Source: an uncultured Flavobacteriales bacterium
Lineage (GTDB): Bacteria; Bacteroidota; Bacteroidia; Flavobacteriales_E; Vicingaceae
DNA length: 55,842 bases
Assembly: GCA_905479915.1 (NCBI GenBank)
Contig: CAJQOH010000040.1
Coordinates: 1-55,842, forward strand
Reading direction: 5' to 3'
In this document: piece by piece, positions 23,326-36,620 of the stretch
Position numbering within the stretch: position 1 is the first letter of the stretch
Layout of the letters: every line of letters starts with the position of its first letter
The notes under the pieces: generated by a model
What the model was told of the DNA's origin: nothing
Database searches by the model: none
The model's input: only the letters and a program-made list of their open reading frames with translations
Translations under genes and position numbers: made by a program

Positions 23326-24132
23326 ATGACCAATAAAACAACCGAATCAGACTCAAAATATAATCATTTAGAACAAATGGAGATAGGAGAACTTATTTCT
23401 AATATTAATGCTGAAGATAAAACTGTTCCTTTAGCAATTGAGGAACAGATTGAGTGTATAGAACGTTTAATCTCTGTTATTGTACTTAAAATGGAGCAGG
23501 GTGGAAGGTTGTTCTATATGGGAGCAGGAACAAGTGGGAGATTAGGGGTTGTAGATGCTTCTGAGTGTCCTCCAACTTTTGGGGTTGAACATGGACTGGT
23601 AGTTGGTTTAATTGCGGGTGGAGATTCTGCAATGTGGAAAGCAGTGGAATTTGCAGAGGATGATACAGAACAAGGATGGAAGGATTTAGAAAAACATCAG
23701 ATTAATGATAAAGATGTTGTGATTGGTATTGCTGCATCAGGAACAACACCTTATGTTATTGGTGCATTAGAAAAATGTAACGAAAATGGAATAGAAACGG
23801 GTTGCATTGTTTGCAATAGTGATAGTACAGTAGCAAAGGTTGCAAAATATCCAATTGAAGTTATCGTTGGCTCCGAGTTTGTTACAGGAAGTACAAGAAT
23901 GAAATCAGGAACAGCTCAAAAACTAGTGCTGAATATGATCTCTACAGCGGTTATGATAAAGCTAGGTAGGGTAAAGGGGAATAAAATGGTAGATATGCAA
24001 TTGAGTAATAACAAATTGGTAGACAGGGGGACCAAAATGGTTATGAATCAATTAAATATAGAATATGAAGAAGCTAAGGATTTACTGCTGACACATGGAA
24101 GTGTTAGAAAAGCAGTAGAATCTAGGTCTTAA
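23326..24132 (+). CDS. murQ: N-acetylmuramic acid 6-phosphate etherase
   Basis: 268 residues. MurQ cleaves the lactyl ether of MurNAc-6-phosphate to give GlcNAc-6-phosphate in peptidoglycan recycling. Sequence signatures are the sugar-isomerase fold motifs MGAGTSGRLGVVDASECPPTFG, IAGGDSAMWKAVE(F)AEDD, GIAASGTTPYVIGAL and FVTGSTRMKSGTAQKLVLNMIS. Slightly shorter than the ~300-residue Escherichia coli enzyme, lacking part of the C-terminal helical tail, as in many Bacteroidota. It stands alone on the plus strand; its stop codon abuts the stop codon of the converging operon with no spacer. No kinase (AmgK/AnmK) or transporter is adjacent. Confidence 0.95.
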   Translation: MTNKTTESDSKYNHLEQMEIGELISNINAEDKTVPLAIEEQIECIERLISVIVLKMEQGGRLFYMGAGTSGRLGVVDASECPPTFGVEHGLVVGLIAGGDSAMWKAVEFAEDDTEQGWKDLEKHQINDKDVVIGIAASGTTPYVIGALEKCNENGIETGCIVCNSDSTVAKVAKYPIEVIVGSEFVTGSTRMKSGTAQKLVLNMISTAVMIKLGRVKGNKMVDMQLSNNKLVDRGTKMVMNQLNIEYEEAKDLLLTHGSVRKAVESRS

Positions 24133-24618
24133 TTATTTATCCTTTTTTATACCGCCAATTCTATAGCCTAGAATAAAAACAAGAGAACCTTTAAGTTCTT
24201 GCTTGTCAGTTTTAGGAATGGTATAGCTTATGTACATCTTACGAGATTTCTCTGGTTCGTAAGCATAAATGTGTTGACCTTCTTTTTTTTCTAATTGATA
24301 AAGAAGTGTTCTTTTTTTGTGCCCTATAGGTTTACTATAAACTTCAACTTTAACATCTACTGGTAAACATGAAGTATTGAATAGAAACTTATATTTTTCT
24401 CCCATAAATAGAGGTACTTCAGTTTCTTTTTGCTGTGTCTTTCCTTTGTAGGTAAATCGAGTTATCTTAGAAGAATCGTATTTAAAGTCTGGCTTCAGTT
24501 CGTTTTTAAGCTCTTTCTTAAGTGCAGTGAAATCACATGCTTCAGACACCTCTATTGCAGCTATAGAAAGTAATGAAATTAAACAGAATGATGCTATGTA
24601 AGAAAGTTTGCGTTTCAT
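24133..24618 (-). CDS. Exported protein of unknown family, paralogue 3 of 3
   Basis: 161 residues with a signal peptide (hydrophobic stretch ending SIAAIEVSEA). Shared with its two upstream paralogues are an N-terminal ALKKEL..ELKPDFKYDS block, a central PLF..EKYKFLFNT block, and a C-terminal YEPEKSRKMYISYTIP..T plus LVFILGYRI block. The order, spacing and length are the same in all three, so they arose by tandem duplication. No known catalytic motif is visible. The C-terminal tail is extended by charged residues (GGIKKDK). Last gene of the operon; its start overlaps the previous stop by one base, and its stop abuts that of murQ. Confidence 0.8.
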   Translation of the reverse strand: MKRKLSYIASFCLISLLSIAAIEVSEACDFTALKKELKNELKPDFKYDSSKITRFTYKGKTQQKETEVPLFMGEKYKFLFNTSCLPVDVKVEVYSKPIGHKKRTLLYQLEKKEGQHIYAYEPEKSRKMYISYTIPKTDKQELKGSLVFILGYRIGGIKKDK

Positions 24619-25091
24619 TATTTTGAATTTATGTTATAGCCAATTAAACAAACCATACACCCCATAAGATTCTCTTTTGTTGTTCTTGGAATTATATAAT
24701 TTAGATAAATCTTTTTAGATTCTTTTGGTTCAAAAATGTAAACGTTTTTACCATCTTCTGGTGTGTCCTTAACAGCGAATAATTCTTTTCTATTTTTAGC
24801 GCCTTGTTTTTTATCAAAAAATTTAATTTCAATATCTTTTGGTACTCCAGCAGTGTTCAATAAAAAGCGGAATTGTTCTTCTTTAAATAAAGGAGCTACA
24901 ATTTCTATTACCTGTATTTCATTTTTATAGGTAAATCGGGTTGCTTTATATGAATCGTATTTGAAGTCTGGCTTTAACCCTTGTAACAATTCATTTTTTA
25001 ATGCTCTTACGTCACAATCATTCTGAGCTTGAAGACATGAGAATGATAGGGTGATTGCTGAGATGATGATGTATAGTATATATTTTTTCAT
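24618..25091 (-). CDS. Exported protein of unknown family, paralogue 2 of 3
   Basis: 157 residues, signal peptide ending CLQAQN. It carries the family blocks ALKNELLQGLKPDFKYDS, PLFKEEQFRFLLNT, KKQGAKNRKELF, YIFEPKESKKIYLNYIIP and MVCLIGY. A cysteine after the signal peptide (NDCD) matches one in paralogue 3 (EACD) but is replaced by tyrosine in paralogue 1. It lies 12 bases after paralogue 1 and overlaps paralogue 3 by one base. No function can be assigned. Confidence 0.8.
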   Translation of the reverse strand: MKKYILYIIISAITLSFSCLQAQNDCDVRALKNELLQGLKPDFKYDSYKATRFTYKNEIQVIEIVAPLFKEEQFRFLLNTAGVPKDIEIKFFDKKQGAKNRKELFAVKDTPEDGKNVYIFEPKESKKIYLNYIIPRTTKENLMGCMVCLIGYNINSK

Positions 25092-25103
25092 TGTAATATT
25101 AGT

Positions 25104-25568
25104 TTATCCAATTTTATACCCCATTAAAAATACAATACATCCTTTTACACCTTTTTCTTCTGTACTAGGTATCGTATATTCAATATACATGGTTTTAGCA
25201 TTTTCAGGTTCAAAAATAAAAACATGTTGATCAGTTTCACTTCCTTTTACAGCGTACAAGATTTTTCTATTTTTTGAACCTTGTTTTTTATTGTAAATTT
25301 TGATTTCAAAATCTGAAGAAAATTCGGCCGTATTAAATAGTAATCTGTACTTTTCATTAGAAAATATAGGTACTTGAATTTCTGCACCTTGCGTTTCTGA
25401 TTTTAACTCAAAATGATTAATGTTTGACGAGTCGTACTTGTAGTCAGGCTTTAATTCTTGGATTAATTCTTTTTTTAATGCCTTGGTATCATAGTTAGTA
25501 TCTTCAATTGTAGAAGTGAGTACTACAAATAGTGAAAATAATGCTACGTATAATGCAGTTTTTTTCAT
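25104..25568 (-). CDS. Exported protein of unknown family, paralogue 1 of 3
   Basis: 154 residues, signal peptide ending near VLTSTIED. The family blocks are ALKKELIQELKPDYKYDS, PIFSNEKYRLLFNT, YNKKQGSKNRKILY, FIFEPENAKTMYIEYTIP and IVFLMGYKIG. It follows the lipoprotein gene by 31 bases and precedes paralogue 2 by 12 bases. The predicted mature protein is small (~130 residues) and rich in beta-type sequence, with no enzyme motif. Function unknown. Confidence 0.8.
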   Translation of the reverse strand: MKKTALYVALFSLFVVLTSTIEDTNYDTKALKKELIQELKPDYKYDSSNINHFELKSETQGAEIQVPIFSNEKYRLLFNTAEFSSDFEIKIYNKKQGSKNRKILYAVKGSETDQHVFIFEPENAKTMYIEYTIPSTEEKGVKGCIVFLMGYKIG

Positions 25569-25599
25569 TAGGTATAAAGCTAAGTAAGGGGAAAGTGAA

Positions 25600-26436
25600 T
25601 TACTCTCCTACTATTTTAGTTCTTATTGTCGTAAGATCAGCACTTAAACTAGCTACAGCTTCATCTGACAATATGAATTCTTCATCACTATCACCATCAA
25701 ATCCAGTAAAGTGACTATTAATTGTCTCTAAGTCAGTTAATAATTCTGAAAACTCATTATCGTCATCATTCTGTTTGATAGACTTAATCAAAATATCTAA
25801 TATGATAGCTTGTTCAGATATTCTAGAAATTAACTTAGGGTTTACTTTAGCTTCATTTACTTTAGCACCTAAATACATTGTTTCTATCCATGCTCCTGCA
25901 AAGATAATAGAACCAGTGTAACCCATTCCATTTTCTTCTAAGTAGTCGTCCATTTGCATTTGTAAATCAGCCATAATGTAAACTAGAGAATCTTCATTTC
26001 CAATATTGGCTTCTAGTCTTTTAGATAAGCCCATAGATCCCATAACATCTGTCATCCATAATTTTTCAGATAGTTTTTTTAATGCAGCTAAATAATTGAT
26101 CGATTCTTGAGTTTGGTTGTTCATGATGCAATATGCCATATTAGAAGCATAAACACCATAATTTAATTTTTGATCATATTTAGAGTTGTAATTATCAACT
26201 TTGTCAACAGAGTTTGTTAAATCACCAATGTAATCTAGTCCAGAACTTTTAAATAACTCAGCTATTTGTAAAGGAGATGGAAGAACATAAGTGATTTCTT
26301 CTGTATCATCTTCAACTGCTGCTTCTTCAATGATTACTTCTTCTTCAGTAACTACTTCTTCTTGATTTCCTCCACAAGCTGCTAAAAAACTTGTTGCGAT
26401 TACTACTGCTGCTATTTTGATCGTTATTTTGTGCAT
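25600..26436 (-). CDS. Lipoprotein of unknown function heading the paralogue operon
   Basis: 278 residues with a lipoprotein signal peptide (SFLAACGG, cysteine at about 21). A strongly acidic linker of glutamates follows (EEVVTEEEVIIEEAA), then a helical domain of about 220 residues ending in a second acidic patch (DGDSDEEF). The acidic residues right after the lipid-anchored cysteine resemble the lipoprotein export signal that sends Bacteroidota lipoproteins to the cell surface, so surface exposure is plausible. First gene of the four-gene operon with the three exported paralogues, 31 bases before the next start. No homologous function recognised. Confidence 0.8.
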   Translation of the reverse strand: MHKITIKIAAVVIATSFLAACGGNQEEVVTEEEVIIEEAAVEDDTEEITYVLPSPLQIAELFKSSGLDYIGDLTNSVDKVDNYNSKYDQKLNYGVYASNMAYCIMNNQTQESINYLAALKKLSEKLWMTDVMGSMGLSKRLEANIGNEDSLVYIMADLQMQMDDYLEENGMGYTGSIIFAGAWIETMYLGAKVNEAKVNPKLISRISEQAIILDILIKSIKQNDDDNEFSELLTDLETINSHFTGFDGDSDEEFILSDEAVASLSADLTTIRTKIVGE

Positions 26437-26494: not shown

Positions 26495-28000
26495 TTAATC
26501 ATTAAGTATTAGCACAAAACCTTTTTTTTCAAAGGTATTGATGTCTTTAGTATCTGAATAATGTAAAATGTAGTAATATGTACCTCCAGGAATTTTAGTG
26601 CCGTTACGTGTTCCATCCCATTTAACCTCATTTTCATTCGTATAAATAGTATTTCCCCATCTATTAAATATGGTAAAGTCTAATATTTTTACCCACCTAA
26701 TGTCTGTTCCTAGGATTAGTTCAAAAAAATCATTTTGATTATCTCCATTAGGAGTAAATACATTCGGTACATCAACAATTGGGTCACAATAAAGGGTTAC
26801 CAATATCGAATCTTCAGATTGACAGCCTAGAATTGGTTCGGTAATTTCAACATGATAATATCCAGTATAACCATTATCTGTAATTGTTTGTGAATTTGGA
26901 AACGAAGGATTCCAGTTATAAGACATTCCTGGGTTTAAGGCATCTAAAGTGATACTTTCATTTTCAGGACAATATTCTAAGGAATCAGGATCAAATGGTA
27001 ACACAGGGAGATCTACTACCGTTACAAACATGGTGTCTGAGAAAGTATTGTTGTTGAAATCAATATTTAAGATAAGCGTATCGCTTTCTGTTACAGCAAA
27101 AATTGTATCATTTAAGTTAAACGGAGTGGGGTAATCAATGGTATTCCAATCTTTAATAGTATCTTCAGATAAGTTGTACCAAGTATAGCTAGTTATATTA
27201 TCAGTGTAATAACTTACATAACCTGTATCTTTATCACAAAAGGTAATGTCGTTAATTTCTATTTCGGTTTGAGGAAAGCAAATTTGTTGCAGATTTGTAG
27301 CTCCTCCGGTAGACGCTGTAAATCCCCAATATACCAGGTTGGCTCCATTGAATACATTGTTTACCAGGTCTATTTGAGCTGAAATTCTTAGGTTACCGTC
27401 AAAATACATGGTTAGGCTATCTGTATTTACATTCCATACAATTCGCGTAGTATGGTAATTTCCATCTTCTATATTTGCTCCTCCTGGATCTAAAGGAACA
27501 GATGAGGCGATGGGAGTAACCCAGTTACTATTTACATACATTCCAGTATGATCATCAGCTAGGTCATCTTTTACAGCACCATTGTTCCAAGTATCAAATT
27601 CAATAGCGATTGACGGAGTAATTCCTTCATAACCGAGACCTCCACCTACTAAACCTAAACTATCAGAATTAAGTCCTCTCATTACAAAAGCAAAGCCATC
27701 AGCTCCACCAGCATCATTACTTCCTAATGTTAGGCAGAAAATCGCATCAAAACTTTTGGATAAATCTATAGGTGTTAAATCCCATACGGCTCCAGCTTGA
27801 CTATTTAAGTCAGGAGTTAGCGTGAAACAAGTATCAATATCAGATGTGCATGAGGGGATAGCATTTACACCAAAGGCATCTCCAACCAGCAAGAAATTTT
27901 GCCCGAAAGCAGCATGTTGATTGAAAAGAAAAGAAAACCCAACGAATAAGAGTAAACTAAATTTTCTAAAGATTTGAGGTGTTGAAATTAATGATCTCAT
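26495..28000 (-). CDS. L-type lectin-like T9SS protein with gliding-type C-terminal domain
   Basis: 501 residues. A signal peptide (ending AAFGQN) is followed by a legume-lectin-like beta-sandwich (about 35-255) with the typical GADGFAFVMRG, IAIEFDTWNNG and HTTRIVWN strands. Two Ig/PKD-like segments (about 260-400) come next, then a type B T9SS sorting domain (NVFTPNGDNQNDFF, FTIFNRWGNTIY, GGTYYYILHYSD, KGFVLILND). Such domains bind carbohydrates, so a secreted or surface glycan-binding role is likely. A TATATTTG box lies 22 bases upstream; it is probably transcribed alone. Confidence 0.87.
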   Translation of the reverse strand: MRSLISTPQIFRKFSLLLFVGFSFLFNQHAAFGQNFLLVGDAFGVNAIPSCTSDIDTCFTLTPDLNSQAGAVWDLTPIDLSKSFDAIFCLTLGSNDAGGADGFAFVMRGLNSDSLGLVGGGLGYEGITPSIAIEFDTWNNGAVKDDLADDHTGMYVNSNWVTPIASSVPLDPGGANIEDGNYHTTRIVWNVNTDSLTMYFDGNLRISAQIDLVNNVFNGANLVYWGFTASTGGATNLQQICFPQTEIEINDITFCDKDTGYVSYYTDNITSYTWYNLSEDTIKDWNTIDYPTPFNLNDTIFAVTESDTLILNIDFNNNTFSDTMFVTVVDLPVLPFDPDSLEYCPENESITLDALNPGMSYNWNPSFPNSQTITDNGYTGYYHVEITEPILGCQSEDSILVTLYCDPIVDVPNVFTPNGDNQNDFFELILGTDIRWVKILDFTIFNRWGNTIYTNENEVKWDGTRNGTKIPGGTYYYILHYSDTKDINTFEKKGFVLILND

Positions 28001-32423: not shown

Positions 32424-35400
32424 ATGAAGAGATTAGTATTTCAAATTTTATTATTGATTTGCTTAGGTAGTTGGGCAAATGCTCAAAACTCTGTTGAACA
32501 GTGTGATTTTGATGCCATCCATCAAAATTTGATGTTAACAGACCCTGTATACAAACAAAAAACAGATGCATTTAATTTACTGTTAACTCAAGGGAATTCT
32601 TCATCTTCTAAAGCTGGACCACCGTATATGGTTCCTGTAGTAGTACATGTAATGCATAAGGGAGAAGCTGTAGGAGTAGGAAGTAATATTTCTGATGCTG
32701 ATATAAATCAAGGAATAAGATCCTTAAATGAGAAGTTTAGAAAAATTCCAGGAAGTATAGGAGATGGGAATGGTGTTGATATGGAGATGGAGTTTGCTTT
32801 AGCAGTAAGAGATCCAAATGGAAATTGTACCGATGGAATAGTTCGTTATGATATGAGTGCTCATAATGACTATATGAACTTTGGAGTTAAAAGGAATAGC
32901 AATACAGGAATGGCTGATGCAACTCTAAAAGCACTTAGTAGATGGACTCCAACCGAATATTACAATATATACTTAGTGTATGAAATAGATGATAATAATT
33001 GTGGTTCGGGAATTCAGGGCTATGCTTATTTTGCATCATCTCATGGTAATACGGTTGATGGGATGTTACAACTTTCTTGTAAGTTCGGAGAACCTACAAA
33101 TTCAACTTTAGTGCATGAGATAGGACATGCAATGAACCTTTACCATACATTTGAAGGAGATGGAGGGGGAGGTAATTGTCCTACAAATACAAGTTGTATG
33201 ACTACTGGAGATAGATGTTGTGATACTCCTCCACATATAAGATATTCTAGTCATCCAAATTATTGGGGAGCAGGATCAAGTTGTGCTTATGCAGATCCAA
33301 ATGGTTGTGGAGCAGGTACAACCCAAGATCACATGCACAATTATATGGATTACTCTCATGATGTGTGTCAAAATGAGTTTACAGCAGATCAAAAAACTAG
33401 ATCTACTTTAGCGATAACAACAACAAGGTCTTCTTTTCTTGAGCAAAATGGAAATATGAGTTTGATACCTCCATCAGCTGCAGGTGTAGATTTTTCTGCA
33501 AGTTCATCAGCTGTATGTTTGGGTACTCCAATTTCGTTTTATGATGAGTCTACTTGTATACCTAATACCTATTTAAATGGAGGGTGGACCGGAATTACGT
33601 TTAGTTGGACATTTGATAATGGGGTTAATCCTCCAATTGTTTCTACCGATCAAAATCCAACTATAAACTTTGTTAATGGAGGAGTATATAATGTTACCCT
33701 TACTGTTACGGATGCCTTTGGGTCTCATACTTTGACTAAAACAGCATTTGTTTTTATTGCTCCTGGAGCTCCTGTTGGAGCTTGTAATGGAGGTGTACAA
33801 AACCAAGGTAATTTTGGTTATCCTATTTCTAGAGTTCAATTTAATACCATTGATAATTCAACAAGTTCTGCTAATAATGGTTACAACGATTATTCTTGTA
33901 CAGATATAACCACTGTTGATGTTGGTCAAACGCATACTTTATCTATTGATATACAATCAGGAAGTCAAACGGGTTATTATGCAGCTTATATTGATTATGA
34001 TAATGATGGAACGTTTGCAGTACCAGCTGAAAGAGTAATGAATGGTAATTTGGGGGGCGGATCGGCTAATACAACCAGAACAGAAAATGTAACGATACCT
34101 GGAACAACTGTTTTGGGTACATTGTTAAGAATGCGTGTTATATACGATCAATTTAATTTATCAGGACCTTGTGATAACTTGTTTACTGGAGAGGCTGAAG
34201 ATTATGGAGTTTATATAAATGATGTGGGAATTCCTGTCGCGGATTTTACAGCAAATAACACAACAATTTGTGAAGGAGATGTAATTGATTTTACAGACAT
34301 AAGTACAAAAGCTCCTACTCAATGGGCATGGACATTTACTGGAGGACTACCAGCAACATCAACAATACAGAATCCTACAAACATAAGTTATGCAACAGCA
34401 GGAACTTACCCAGTAGAGTTAATAGCAACTAATGCGAATGGCAGTGATACAACGGTTAAGACAACTTATATTACAGTAAATACCTGTACAAATCCACCGG
34501 TAGCAGATTTTACAGCAAACAATACTACAATTTGTGAAGGAGATGTAATTGATTTTACAGACATAAGTACAGATGTTCCAACAGGATGGACTTGGGCATT
34601 TACTGGAGGGCTACCCGCAACATCAACAGTTCAAAACCCTACAAACATAAGTTATGCAACAGCAGGAACTTACCCAGTAGAATTAATAGCAACCAATGTG
34701 AATGGTAGTGATACAATAGTTAAGACAACTTATATTACTGTAAACACCTGTACAACTCCACCTGTAGCAGATTTCACAGCAAATAACACAACAATTTGTG
34801 AGGGTGATGTAATAGATTTTACAGACATAAGTACAAATGTTCCAACAGGATGGGCTTGGGCATTTACTGGAGGATTACCAGCTGCATCAACAGTTCAAAA
34901 CCCTACAAACATAAGTTATGCAACAGCAGGAACTTATCAAGTAGAATTAATAGCAACTAATGCGCATGGTAGTGATACAATTGTTAAGACAACTTATATT
35001 ACCGTTAATGTGTGTAATACAGTTCCCGTAGCAGATTTCACTGCAAACAATACTACAATATGTGAAGGAGATGTAATTGATTTTACTGACATAAGTACAA
35101 ATGCACCAACAGGTTGGGCATGGGCATTTACTGGAGGAGTACCAGCTGCATCAACGGTTCAAAACCCTACAAACATAAGTTATGCAACAGCAGGAACTTA
35201 CCCAGTAGAATTGATAGCAACCAATGCAAATGGTAGCGATACAGTAGTTAAGACAATCTATATTACGGTTAATGTATGTGGTACAGTACCGGTAGCAGAT
35301 TTTACAGCAAACAACACTACAATATGTGAAGGAGATGTAATTGATTTTACGGATATAAGTACAAATACACCTACAAGCTGGAGTTGGGTGTTTACAGGAG

Positions 35401-36620
35401 GTGTGCCAGCTACATCAACAGTTCAAAATCCTACAAACATAAGTTATGCAACTGCAGGAACTTACCAGGTTGAGTTAACAGCTGTTAATGCAGCAGGTAA
35501 TGATATAGAAACAAAGGTGGCTTACATAACAGTAAATGACTGTTCACCAACTGCTGACTTTTCTGCATCTCAAACAACTTTGTGTGAAGCAGATTGTATC
35601 ACATTCAACGATTTAAGTACAGGAACTCCAACAACTTATGCGTGGTCATTCCCGGGAGGAACACCAGCAACAGCAACAGGAGCAAATCCTGGATCAATTT
35701 GTTATCCAGCTATTGGTACGTACAATGTAACGTTAACAGTTACGAATCAACACGGTACAAATAGTGTAACAAAATCTAGTTTAATTGCGGTAAATCCATG
35801 TGACCCACCAATAGCAGCAATAACCATAAATGATGCTGATGCCGAAATCTGTGTAGATAACTGTATCGATTTTACGTTCAATAATGATAGCTTAGGAGGA
35901 GTTCCAGATACCTTATTTTGGACTTTCCCTGGAGGAACACCAAGTTCTTATGGAACTACTAGTCTTACAGATGTAATAACAGTTTGTTGGAATGATACAA
36001 GTGGTAATTTTGCAGCTAGTGTTGCTGCAACTAATGCTTATGGTACTTCAATTGCTACGCAATCCATAGGAGTACATTTAAACCCTATAATCAATGCTGG
36101 TAATGATATTTCTATAGACATAGGAAAAGATGGAGAAATTAGTTCTATTATTACAGATGCTGGAGGAAATATTATACCAACTACTAATGGGAGATTAAGA
36201 TGGACTCCTTTTACATATTTAGTGTCACCAATTAGTCAAAGTACACCTGTTATACAGCCAGAAGATACAACAGTATATACTGTTACTTATACAGATGAGT
36301 ATGGTTGTGTGGTGTCTGATGATGTAGTTGTTAATGTGAATTTGGTAATGAATGTTGGTGTGCCAAGCGCATTTGCACCAGGTAGTTCATTTAATAACAT
36401 ACTTTTTGTAAAAGGAAAAATTGTAATTGAATCAATGAACTTTGTTATCTATAATAGATACGGACAACAAGTATTTGAGACAACAGATGTTGAAGAAGGG
36501 TGGGATGGAACCCATAAAGGTAAAGAGTTGAACCCTGGTGTTTTTGTATACTATTTGAAAGTTACATTTATTGATGGAACACAAAGAGAATTAAAAGGAA
36601 ACGTAACACTAGTAAAATAA
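32424..36620 (+). CDS. M43 (cytophagalysin/pappalysin-like) metalloprotease with PKD repeats and T9SS domain
   Basis: 1398 residues. Signal peptide ending WANAQN; a propeptide-like segment; a zinc protease domain (about 65-345) with HEIGHAMNLYHTF (HExxHxxxxxH) and a Met-turn in MHNYMDYSHD, cysteine-rich as in M43. Next are one PKD domain (about 350-445), a GEVED domain (about 455-600, AAYIDYDNDG and EAEDYGVYI), five nearly identical PKD repeats of 88 residues (about 605-1040), one diverged PKD repeat and one Ig-like domain (about 1040-1260), and a type B T9SS sorting domain (AFAPGSSFNNILF, FVIYNRYGQQVF, GVFVYYLKVTF, GNVTLVK). It is predicted to be a secreted or surface protease. The repeats are similar at DNA level too. 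Confidence 0.93.
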   Translation: MKRLVFQILLLICLGSWANAQNSVEQCDFDAIHQNLMLTDPVYKQKTDAFNLLLTQGNSSSSKAGPPYMVPVVVHVMHKGEAVGVGSNISDADINQGIRSLNEKFRKIPGSIGDGNGVDMEMEFALAVRDPNGNCTDGIVRYDMSAHNDYMNFGVKRNSNTGMADATLKALSRWTPTEYYNIYLVYEIDDNNCGSGIQGYAYFASSHGNTVDGMLQLSCKFGEPTNSTLVHEIGHAMNLYHTFEGDGGGGNCPTNTSCMTTGDRCCDTPPHIRYSSHPNYWGAGSSCAYADPNGCGAGTTQDHMHNYMDYSHDVCQNEFTADQKTRSTLAITTTRSSFLEQNGNMSLIPPSAAGVDFSASSSAVCLGTPISFYDESTCIPNTYLNGGWTGITFSWTFDNGVNPPIVSTDQNPTINFVNGGVYNVTLTVTDAFGSHTLTKTAFVFIAPGAPVGACNGGVQNQGNFGYPISRVQFNTIDNSTSSANNGYNDYSCTDITTVDVGQTHTLSIDIQSGSQTGYYAAYIDYDNDGTFAVPAERVMNGNLGGGSANTTRTENVTIPGTTVLGTLLRMRVIYDQFNLSGPCDNLFTGEAEDYGVYINDVGIPVADFTANNTTICEGDVIDFTDISTKAPTQWAWTFTGGLPATSTIQNPTNISYATAGTYPVELIATNANGSDTTVKTTYITVNTCTNPPVADFTANNTTICEGDVIDFTDISTDVPTGWTWAFTGGLPATSTVQNPTNISYATAGTYPVELIATNVNGSDTIVKTTYITVNTCTTPPVADFTANNTTICEGDVIDFTDISTNVPTGWAWAFTGGLPAASTVQNPTNISYATAGTYQVELIATNAHGSDTIVKTTYITVNVCNTVPVADFTANNTTICEGDVIDFTDISTNAPTGWAWAFTGGVPAASTVQNPTNISYATAGTYPVELIATNANGSDTVVKTIYITVNVCGTVPVADFTANNTTICEGDVIDFTDISTNTPTSWSWVFTGGVPATSTVQNPTNISYATAGTYQVELTAVNAAGNDIETKVAYITVNDCSPTADFSASQTTLCEADCITFNDLSTGTPTTYAWSFPGGTPATATGANPGSICYPAIGTYNVTLTVTNQHGTNSVTKSSLIAVNPCDPPIAAITINDADAEICVDNCIDFTFNNDSLGGVPDTLFWTFPGGTPSSYGTTSLTDVITVCWNDTSGNFAASVAATNAYGTSIATQSIGVHLNPIINAGNDISIDIGKDGEISSIITDAGGNIIPTTNGRLRWTPFTYLVSPISQSTPVIQPEDTTVYTVTYTDEYGCVVSDDVVVNVNLVMNVGVPSAFAPGSSFNNILFVKGKIVIESMNFVIYNRYGQQVFETTDVEEGWDGTHKGKELNPGVFVYYLKVTFIDGTQRELKGNVTLVK
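34236..35555 (+). repeat. Five tandem 264-bp PKD-encoding repeats
   Basis: Units start at 34236, 34500, 34764, 35028 and 35292, each exactly 264 bases (88 codons), beginning with codons for VADFTANNTTICEGDV. Protein identity is very high and the changes cluster at a few positions (for example DIST..PT.W, VNxC). The following unit from about 35556 is clearly diverged (TADFSASQTTLCEADC). Such in-frame units can change copy number by recombination. Confidence 0.92.

Follow-up and report, generated by a model that had tools for sequence, protein, structure and literature searches.

A lipoprotein and its small exported partner: a widespread, unnamed gene pair expanded at one locus of a Vicingaceae genome

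The Sus-type systems of Bacteroidota are multi-copy gene pairs with a lipoprotein, and in their organisation they offer a point of comparison for the locus treated here. Single proteins provide others, such as the imelysins, which carry a GxHxxE motif, and the Ena-type pilins, whose subunits are joined by disulfides through an N-terminal connector. Signals for the export of lipoproteins to the cell surface are described in one study, namely K-(D/E)2 at +3 to +5 in Capnocytophaga and S-D-D-type clusters at +2 to +5 derived from Bacteroides and Flavobacterium (PMC5080379). In this paper we consider four genes on the minus strand of a 55,842-nucleotide stretch (contig CAJQOH010000040.1 of assembly GCA_905479915.1, an uncultured Flavobacteriales bacterium of the Vicingaceae), hereafter the window. 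Read from 26436 to 24133 they follow each other head to tail: a lipoprotein gene (25600-26436; 278 amino acids) and three genes for small exported proteins, copy 1 (25104-25568; 154 amino acids), copy 2 (24618-25091; 157 amino acids) and copy 3 (24133-24618; 161 amino acids). A sequence-only reading of the window had proposed a four-gene system with a possible place on the cell surface, and this proposal is partly supported: the conserved unit is a pair of one lipoprotein and one small exported partner, not a four-gene operon, and the window locus is one expanded example of a widespread, unnamed pair.

The resemblance to Sus-type systems lies in a lipoprotein-containing pair that occurs in several diverged copies per genome, each inherited together. 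However, no SusD-like model matched the window lipoprotein (up to E 5), nor was one present in 25 of the 32 families matched by 75 members of its family, and no TonB-dependent transporter or other Sus-type neighbour was recognised on reading 20 loci, the neighbours of the 80 named loci discussed below not having been searched one by one. The predicted all-helical fold of the lipoprotein recalls helical Bacteroides proteins of unknown function, BF3319 (3iee) and the DUF3829-like BT_1908 (3rh3), with Z scores of 5.3 and 5.1, but these lie below the level that the tool regards as meaningful for helical bundles, and neither protein matches the family in sequence. With imelysin/EfeO-like proteins (3pf0, 5y4c; Z 3.6 each) the lipoprotein may share a helical exported domain, and it has a conserved Gly...Glu helix motif, which here reads G-x-W-x-E and not GxHxxE, Trp and Glu being present in 129/129 rows. 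The best matches to the lipoprotein model reach a Foldseek E of 0.57 and a Z of 6.7 (9cc4); no family can be named for its fold, from which it does not follow that the fold is new. The model of copy 2 comes close to the GOLD domain of p24/TMED cargo receptors (5azy, Z 8.9, 2.2 A over 91 residues; 5gu5, Z 8.3), but the sequences are unlike (~9% identity), and the best Foldseek E values (~4e-4 to 6e-4) are tied with those of many unrelated jelly rolls. In addition, the EMP24_GP25L model did not match the three window copies up to E 5, and matched one of 82 members of the small family at 5.9e-5. Judged from the models, the likeness to the wider GOLD/CUB/PPC jelly-roll group appears to be one of fold and not of membership.

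Searches of family libraries gave the same picture. The window proteins had only weak, scattered matches in Pfam, NCBIfam and PADLOC, and no consistent family emerged for 75 lipoproteins against NCBIfam and Pfam, for 82 small proteins against Pfam, or for single relatives. The strongest hits were TPPII (2.9e-5) and the EMP24_GP25L match just mentioned, each in one small member, while lipobox or helix-type matches near 4e-4 were seen in up to 8 of the 75 lipoproteins. Searches of the PDB by sequence, with copy 2 alone and with profiles of both families, returned nothing below E 0.2, and no paper on the lipoprotein-small pair was found in the literature as judged by title and the start of the abstract. 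Assignment to a known family, an outcome that would have told against the system idea of the sequence-only reading, was thus not seen in the searches of Pfam, NCBIfam, PADLOC and PDB sequences. The pair is new at the level of families and of pairing, as no known kind was found under which to file it; its working principle may be a variant of something known.

The pair across loci and genomes

The small gene stands beside the lipoprotein gene, on the same strand, in all 80 loci of a set that comprises the best 80 of at least 544 matches on named genome contigs, ranked by likeness to the window lipoprotein. In L183, L185 and L205 it lies upstream, not downstream. One lipoprotein gene has a row of two or three small genes behind it in 21 of the 80 loci, and tandem lipoprotein-small units occur in six; arrays of two or three such units are seen in L181, L187, L191, L193, L195 and L201, which are labelled Crocinitomicaceae or Flavobacteriales. 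Missed by the gene caller but visible in stop-to-stop frames are the pair of L207 and the small genes of L212. For one relative (L218) a plasmid match was sought and none was found. The four-gene system seen by the sequence-only reading is therefore narrowed to its conserved core, one lipoprotein and one partner, several partners in a row being the arrangement of the 21 loci.

Within the taxonomic family of the source genome, the lipoprotein was detected in 46 of 46 genomes and the small protein in 43 of the 46 (E 0.001), relatives in the scan of named contigs being labelled Vicingus and Vicingaceae; an order-level search returned the identical 46 genomes. In a draw of 395 genomes from the class, for which cut-offs of E 1e-5 (lipoprotein) and E 1e-4 (small protein) were applied and at most six candidates were scored per genome, the lipoprotein profile matched 207 genomes and the small-protein profile 185. 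Both proteins were found in 185 genomes, the lipoprotein only in 22, the small protein only in none, and neither in 188, so that lipoprotein and partner do occur together in most genomes that have the lipoprotein, as had been expected of them from the sequence. A draw of 296 genomes from the phylum yielded seven with a match, of which five were strong, all from the same class and including the source genome, and two weak and outside the class; this draw was composed very differently from the class draw, and the percentages of the two are not comparable.

In the source genome itself four contigs carry one lipoprotein gene each, and behind every one of these genes a small exported protein is encoded on the same strand (modules A to D). 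Module A lies beside a symporter gene and a TerB-ABC exporter gene (the ABC part also assigned by Pfam), module B downstream of polA, and module C between a symporter and a DHH-type gene; apart from the Pfam assignment these names were read from sequence. Module D is the window locus. Directly after the small gene of module A (L067, 5567-8626) a protein of ~1020 residues combines a weak TerB match with an ABC ATPase and an ABC2 membrane domain, and such a TerB-ABC-ABC2 protein is also found in L074, L076, L081, L084, L214, L217, L220, L226 and L277. The neighbours of the modules are varied, and those that could be named from sequence are mostly housekeeping genes, many others being left unnamed; thrS, for example, likewise named from sequence, lies directly downstream in 17 of the 80 loci.

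A partner could be assigned to 101 of 102 distinct lipoproteins of at least 200 amino acids (from the window, L067-L086 and L148-L227), the exception being L085. The distance matrices of the 101 pairs correlate with r = 0.73, the highest value among 1000 permutations being 0.15, and because the trees of both proteins agree in this way the pairs were duplicated and inherited as units. A control for shared species history is provided within the source genome: in each of A, B, C and D, the units elsewhere that are nearest to the lipoprotein are for the most part also those nearest to its own partner. For A, B and C there is moreover a one-to-one correspondence, in both proteins, with A, B and C of genome G042. 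Of the two proteins the lipoprotein is the more conserved in 77.5% of comparisons, with a mean identity of 32% as against 28% for the partner.

Architecture of the two proteins and the window locus

The lipoprotein begins with a signal peptide followed by a lipobox Cys, the pattern from which we infer lipidation at Cys21 (codon 26374-26376, minus strand). This Cys is present in 129/129 full-length distinct family rows, and the residue at -1 is S, A or G in 83 of 102 rows. It is followed by an acidic, disordered tether of about residues 22-50 (26287-26373), with pLDDT below 50 at residues 26-44; in the family as a whole the linker after the Cys has a median length of 35 amino acids, with 25% D/E and 5% K/R (102 rows). 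Behind this arm, the AlphaFold2 model of the window protein consists of helices only (pLDDT 85, pTM 0.80), and the helical domain, residues 53-278 (25603-26280), holds the other conserved residues. Counted over the 129 full-length of 135 distinct rows, unweighted for kinship, residues conserved at 88% or more are P53, S54, G66, Y83, N92, G94, Y96, D99, Y102, Y115 and R140 in the first part of the domain and N144, D149, S150, D163, N169, G181, W183, E185, Y188, Q209 and R272 in the second. P53, G94, W183 and E185 share with Cys21 its presence in every full-length row, and R140, N144, D149, S150, D163, Q209 and R272 are kept in ~90% or more; among 75 lipoproteins, seven columns are invariant and a further 16 nearly so. 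At residue 99 (codon 26140-26142, minus strand) the window protein has Asn, as does its close relative L008, where 126 of the 129 rows have Asp. As these polar and aromatic residues are kept across paralogues that are only ~30% identical, they probably form either a common site or pocket or a buried polar core.

Distant relatives of the helical domain were found outside the class, in L258 (1489-2259) and L259 (1408-2181), as exported proteins without lipobox and without small partner. They share the G-x-W-x-E block with the lipoprotein family (hhalign probability 96), and since such solo, lipobox-free relatives exist outside the class, the helical domain seems to be older than its pairing with the small protein.

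For the small partner, AlphaFold2 predicts a beta-sandwich of eight strands (copy 2; pLDDT 91, pTM 0.80), whose best matches are jelly rolls of the GOLD, CUB, Ena and PPC types, with many tied rows and a best Z of 8.9. Its sequence is more variable: among 82 partners no column is invariant and seven are nearly so (M1, C26, Y74, P135, G144, C145, G151). One of the two conserved Cys sits close to where the first helix of the mature protein begins, the other in the final strand. Of 168 rows, 153 have both, seven neither and eight one (12 of 180 distinct partner rows with gaps were set aside), and because the two mostly occur or vanish together they suggest an intrachain disulfide. In the window, copy 1 lacks the N-terminal and copy 3 the C-terminal Cys, and copy 2 alone has both. 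A reciprocal disulfide between copies 1 and 3 was considered and dropped, because the losses are unpaired in other species: L008 has one copy without the C-terminal Cys only, and L011 lacks the N-terminal Cys only. The partner of module C (L069, 5708-6406) contains an inserted Cys-rich stretch that recalls the zinc region of DnaJ, with a Pfam E of 0.0047 that misses the cut-off.

The arrangement of the four window genes described by the sequence-only reading was confirmed from the open reading frames (ORFs), with spacers of 31, 12 and -1 bases, copies 2 and 3 overlapping by one base. The sequence blocks that it listed are present in all three copies, except that FxFEP is in fact FIFEP, YIFEP or YAYEP and that MY is IY in copy 2. 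Its proposal of duplication and divergence is likewise borne out by alignment and tree. The copies are clearly homologous, being mutually 42-47% identical and matching far better than chance would allow (BLASTP: copies 1 and 2, 45%, E 4e-47; copies 2 and 3, 42%, E 1e-42). A tree of 60 small proteins places them in three separate, supported clades (100/98, 100/98 and 99/96), each together with other species of the genus: copy 1 with L150p1, L149p1 and L153p1, copy 2 with L148p1, L151p1 and L152p1, and copy 3 with L153p2, L152p3, L148p2 and L151p2. The window has no member of a fourth lineage, formed by L150p2 and L152p2. As each window copy groups with copies from other species, the duplications predate the species sampled from the genus, and different subsets were kept in these; they may be older than the genus as well. 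A second group of loci has a clade (100/100) made up of its second and third partners, with the first partners outside it.

All four genes look to be under constraint. When they were compared with their best matches in five genomes of the genus, dN/dS was 0.08-0.31 in 19 of 20 comparisons (one was not computable), values for which dS was often near saturation and for which best matches at 45-49% identity are probably other paralogues, not orthologues. Promoter and terminator pattern searches gave no support for a single transcript over the four genes, the Bacteroidota-type promoter pattern as well as sigma-70-like and terminator-like sites being no commoner at the locus than in shuffled sequence, and a search for RNA genes across the window found none.

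Outside the module, a gene for a MurQ/GKRP-like SIS-domain protein (23326-24132, plus strand; Pfam GKRP_SIS_N 3.3e-20) converges on the locus, its last base immediately preceding copy 3; this cluster, named murQ from its sequence, is present in 12 fetched loci. On the other side lies a minus-strand gene (26495-28000) for a protein with an L-type lectin domain and a T9SS type B sorting domain (Pfam Lectin_L-type_dom 1.3e-44 and CHU_C 1.6e-19; NCBIfam TIGR04131), which in the window stands between a carboxylase-like gene and the lipoprotein gene and is not at that place in L149-L152. Farther away, at 32424-36620 on the plus strand, the window encodes a protein of 1398 residues with several nearly identical repeats, PVADFTANNTTICEGDVIDFTDIST, which we take to be PKD-like and whose near-identity suggests recent internal duplication.

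Placement in the envelope and rival explanations

The acidic run behind the lipidated Cys had been read, from the sequence alone, as a signal that sends the lipoprotein to the surface, a claim that the published signals do not support. From the Cys on, the window protein reads CGGNQEEVV, so that the run starts at +6, and in the family acidic residues are scattered along a stretch of ~30 positions (about +4 to +30). The lipoprotein export signal (LES) in the form C-X-K-(D/E)2 occurs in 0 of 102 members and C-(S/N/T/Q)-(D/E)2 in 2 of 102; (D/E)2 starting at +3 to +5 is found in 21 of 102. Because a surface signal of the published type is absent, a place on the periplasmic face of the outer membrane is modestly favoured.

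The source genome also contains two orphan small proteins, E and F. E stands in the order GldB, GldC, small, HemN (L070, 2347-5538, contig C23 of the source genome; also L079, L080 and L262-L269), with GldB and GldC of L070 assigned by Pfam and NCBIfam. All 11 lineage-E loci fetched from the genus show GldC, the small gene and HemN in this order, separated by -1 to 2 bases, and a GldB homologue lies upstream in nine of them, the contigs of the other two ending there. One clade (100/99) unites E and F with the small proteins from lipoprotein-small-HemN units of other genera, and within it E and F are nearer each other (97/89); a grouping of E with the HemN-unit proteins alone is not rejected (p-AU 0.149). 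It looks as if E were the partner of a lost lipoprotein that now stands with GldB and GldC, which we regard as a lead. An idea that the lipoprotein is itself a relative of GldB was dropped (hhalign probability 20 over 24 columns), and the GldB model PF25594 did not match the window lipoprotein up to E 5.

The best-supported mechanism, which we put forward tentatively and with somewhat more doubt than conviction, is that the two proteins form an envelope complex, which probably faces the periplasm and in which partners can be exchanged. In such a complex the lipoprotein would carry its lipid at Cys21, and its flexible acidic arm would tether it to the outer membrane, most likely on the periplasmic side; its helical domain would carry the conserved working part, either a polar and aromatic pocket, with whatever ligand that might bind, or a buried polar core. 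The small protein would be exported by the Sec route, fold into a compact beta-sandwich that is usually closed by one disulfide, and dock on the helical domain of its own lipoprotein, this exchangeable partner setting the specificity. The source genome keeps four such pairs (A to D), each inherited as a unit, and in pair D the partner has been multiplied, so that one lipoprotein would be served by three diverged partners.

A number of observations weigh against this mechanism. In twelve of the 22 genomes with the lipoprotein only, no small gene is seen within a flank of ~1.5 kb; of the remaining ten, eight have an adjoining, diverged small gene (L229, L230, L232, L233, L235, L236, L247, L248) and two are uninformative, as L228 ends right after the gene and L249 is a fragment. 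Solo lipoproteins are also the second genes of G059, G254 and G199 and the third of G254 (L250, L251, L252, L255), as well as L280 and module B of G009 (L085), both from the family of the source genome, and the distant homologues L258 and L259, which are not lipidated, are solo too. Solo small proteins occur in the form of the E and F copies. Solo lipoproteins are thus real, and a minority among those examined. Furthermore, the agreement between the trees of lipoprotein and partner also contains shared species history, the genes that neighbour the modules differ from one to another and point to no common pathway, two of the three window copies each lack one Cys of the pair, and the argument for the periplasmic side is that a motif which was described in other members of the phylum is absent here.

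Several other explanations have to be weighed. The lipoprotein could be flipped to the surface and, with the sandwich proteins, capture ligands from outside in the manner of a Sus-like receptor pair. The acidic N-terminal region, the 21 members with (D/E)2 beginning at +3 to +5 and the lectin-type T9SS cargo gene next door in the window would fit such a receptor; yet the diffuse acidity and near-absence of both motifs described above, the absence of the lectin gene from that place in L149-L152, and the lack of recognised Sus-type neighbours within the limits given above make it unlikely. The position of E in all lineage-E loci, with GldB upstream in nine, and the clade that joins E and F to the partners of lipoprotein-small-HemN units would agree with a role as accessory of the gliding or type IX machinery, in which the small proteins would partner lipoproteins of that apparatus and the modules would serve its assembly or cargo. 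The presence of the lipoprotein does not track the secretion system, however: SprA occurs in 385 of the 395 class genomes as against 207 for the lipoprotein, and because SprA is nearly universal the co-occurrence test is uninformative on this link. With neither kinship between the lipoprotein and GldB nor, among the loci compared, any lipoprotein module directly adjoining gldB (the GldB-cluster gene of L198 is on the opposite strand and separated by several genes), we consider such a role unlikely.

That the pair is an inhibitor or scavenger, in which the sandwich protein, anchored by the lipoprotein, would bind and neutralise a toxic compound or an enzyme that attacks the envelope, seems still less probable to us. 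The periplasmic lysozyme inhibitor PliG is one of many proteins with a similar sandwich (4dzg, Z 7.0, 3.1 A over 95), and partners diverge faster than lipoproteins, but the score of PliG is level with those of many unrelated jelly rolls, PADLOC gave the window proteins no match below E 0.04, and many modules lie beside genes read from sequence as housekeeping genes. Very improbable, finally, is the view that there is no complex and that the small proteins are Ena-like, disulfide-linked subunits of a surface structure or fibre, merely co-expressed with the lipoprotein. The fibre subunit Ena2A is one of the structures most like the model (9i0y, Z 8.6, 3.6 A over 102), and N- and C-terminal Cys are conserved in proteins that occur in tandem copies; the joint presence or absence of these Cys (153 and 7 rows vs 8) points instead to a bond within the chain, and the tree agreement of lipoprotein and partner likewise speaks against mere co-expression.

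Meaning for the Bacteroidia envelope

Beyond the two-part complex, a wider and more doubtful picture may be drawn, in which the pairs would represent an ancient, previously undescribed envelope machine of the Bacteroidia. Its centre would be a helical lipoprotein of the outer membrane, whose single conserved binding site would be combined with swappable exported sandwich adaptors, in up to six scored copies per genome; adaptors would be transferable to other lipoproteins (as E in the gldB-gldC operon), and in module D one lipoprotein would use three of them.

About half of the sampled genomes of the class (207 of 395) carry the lipoprotein, many of them in several copies, and annotation by the family libraries searched leaves both proteins unnamed because neither has a model in them. 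So strictly kept a pair is a direct handle on envelope function, and its orphan copy in the gldB-gldC operon is a concrete link to the gliding-related lipoproteins.

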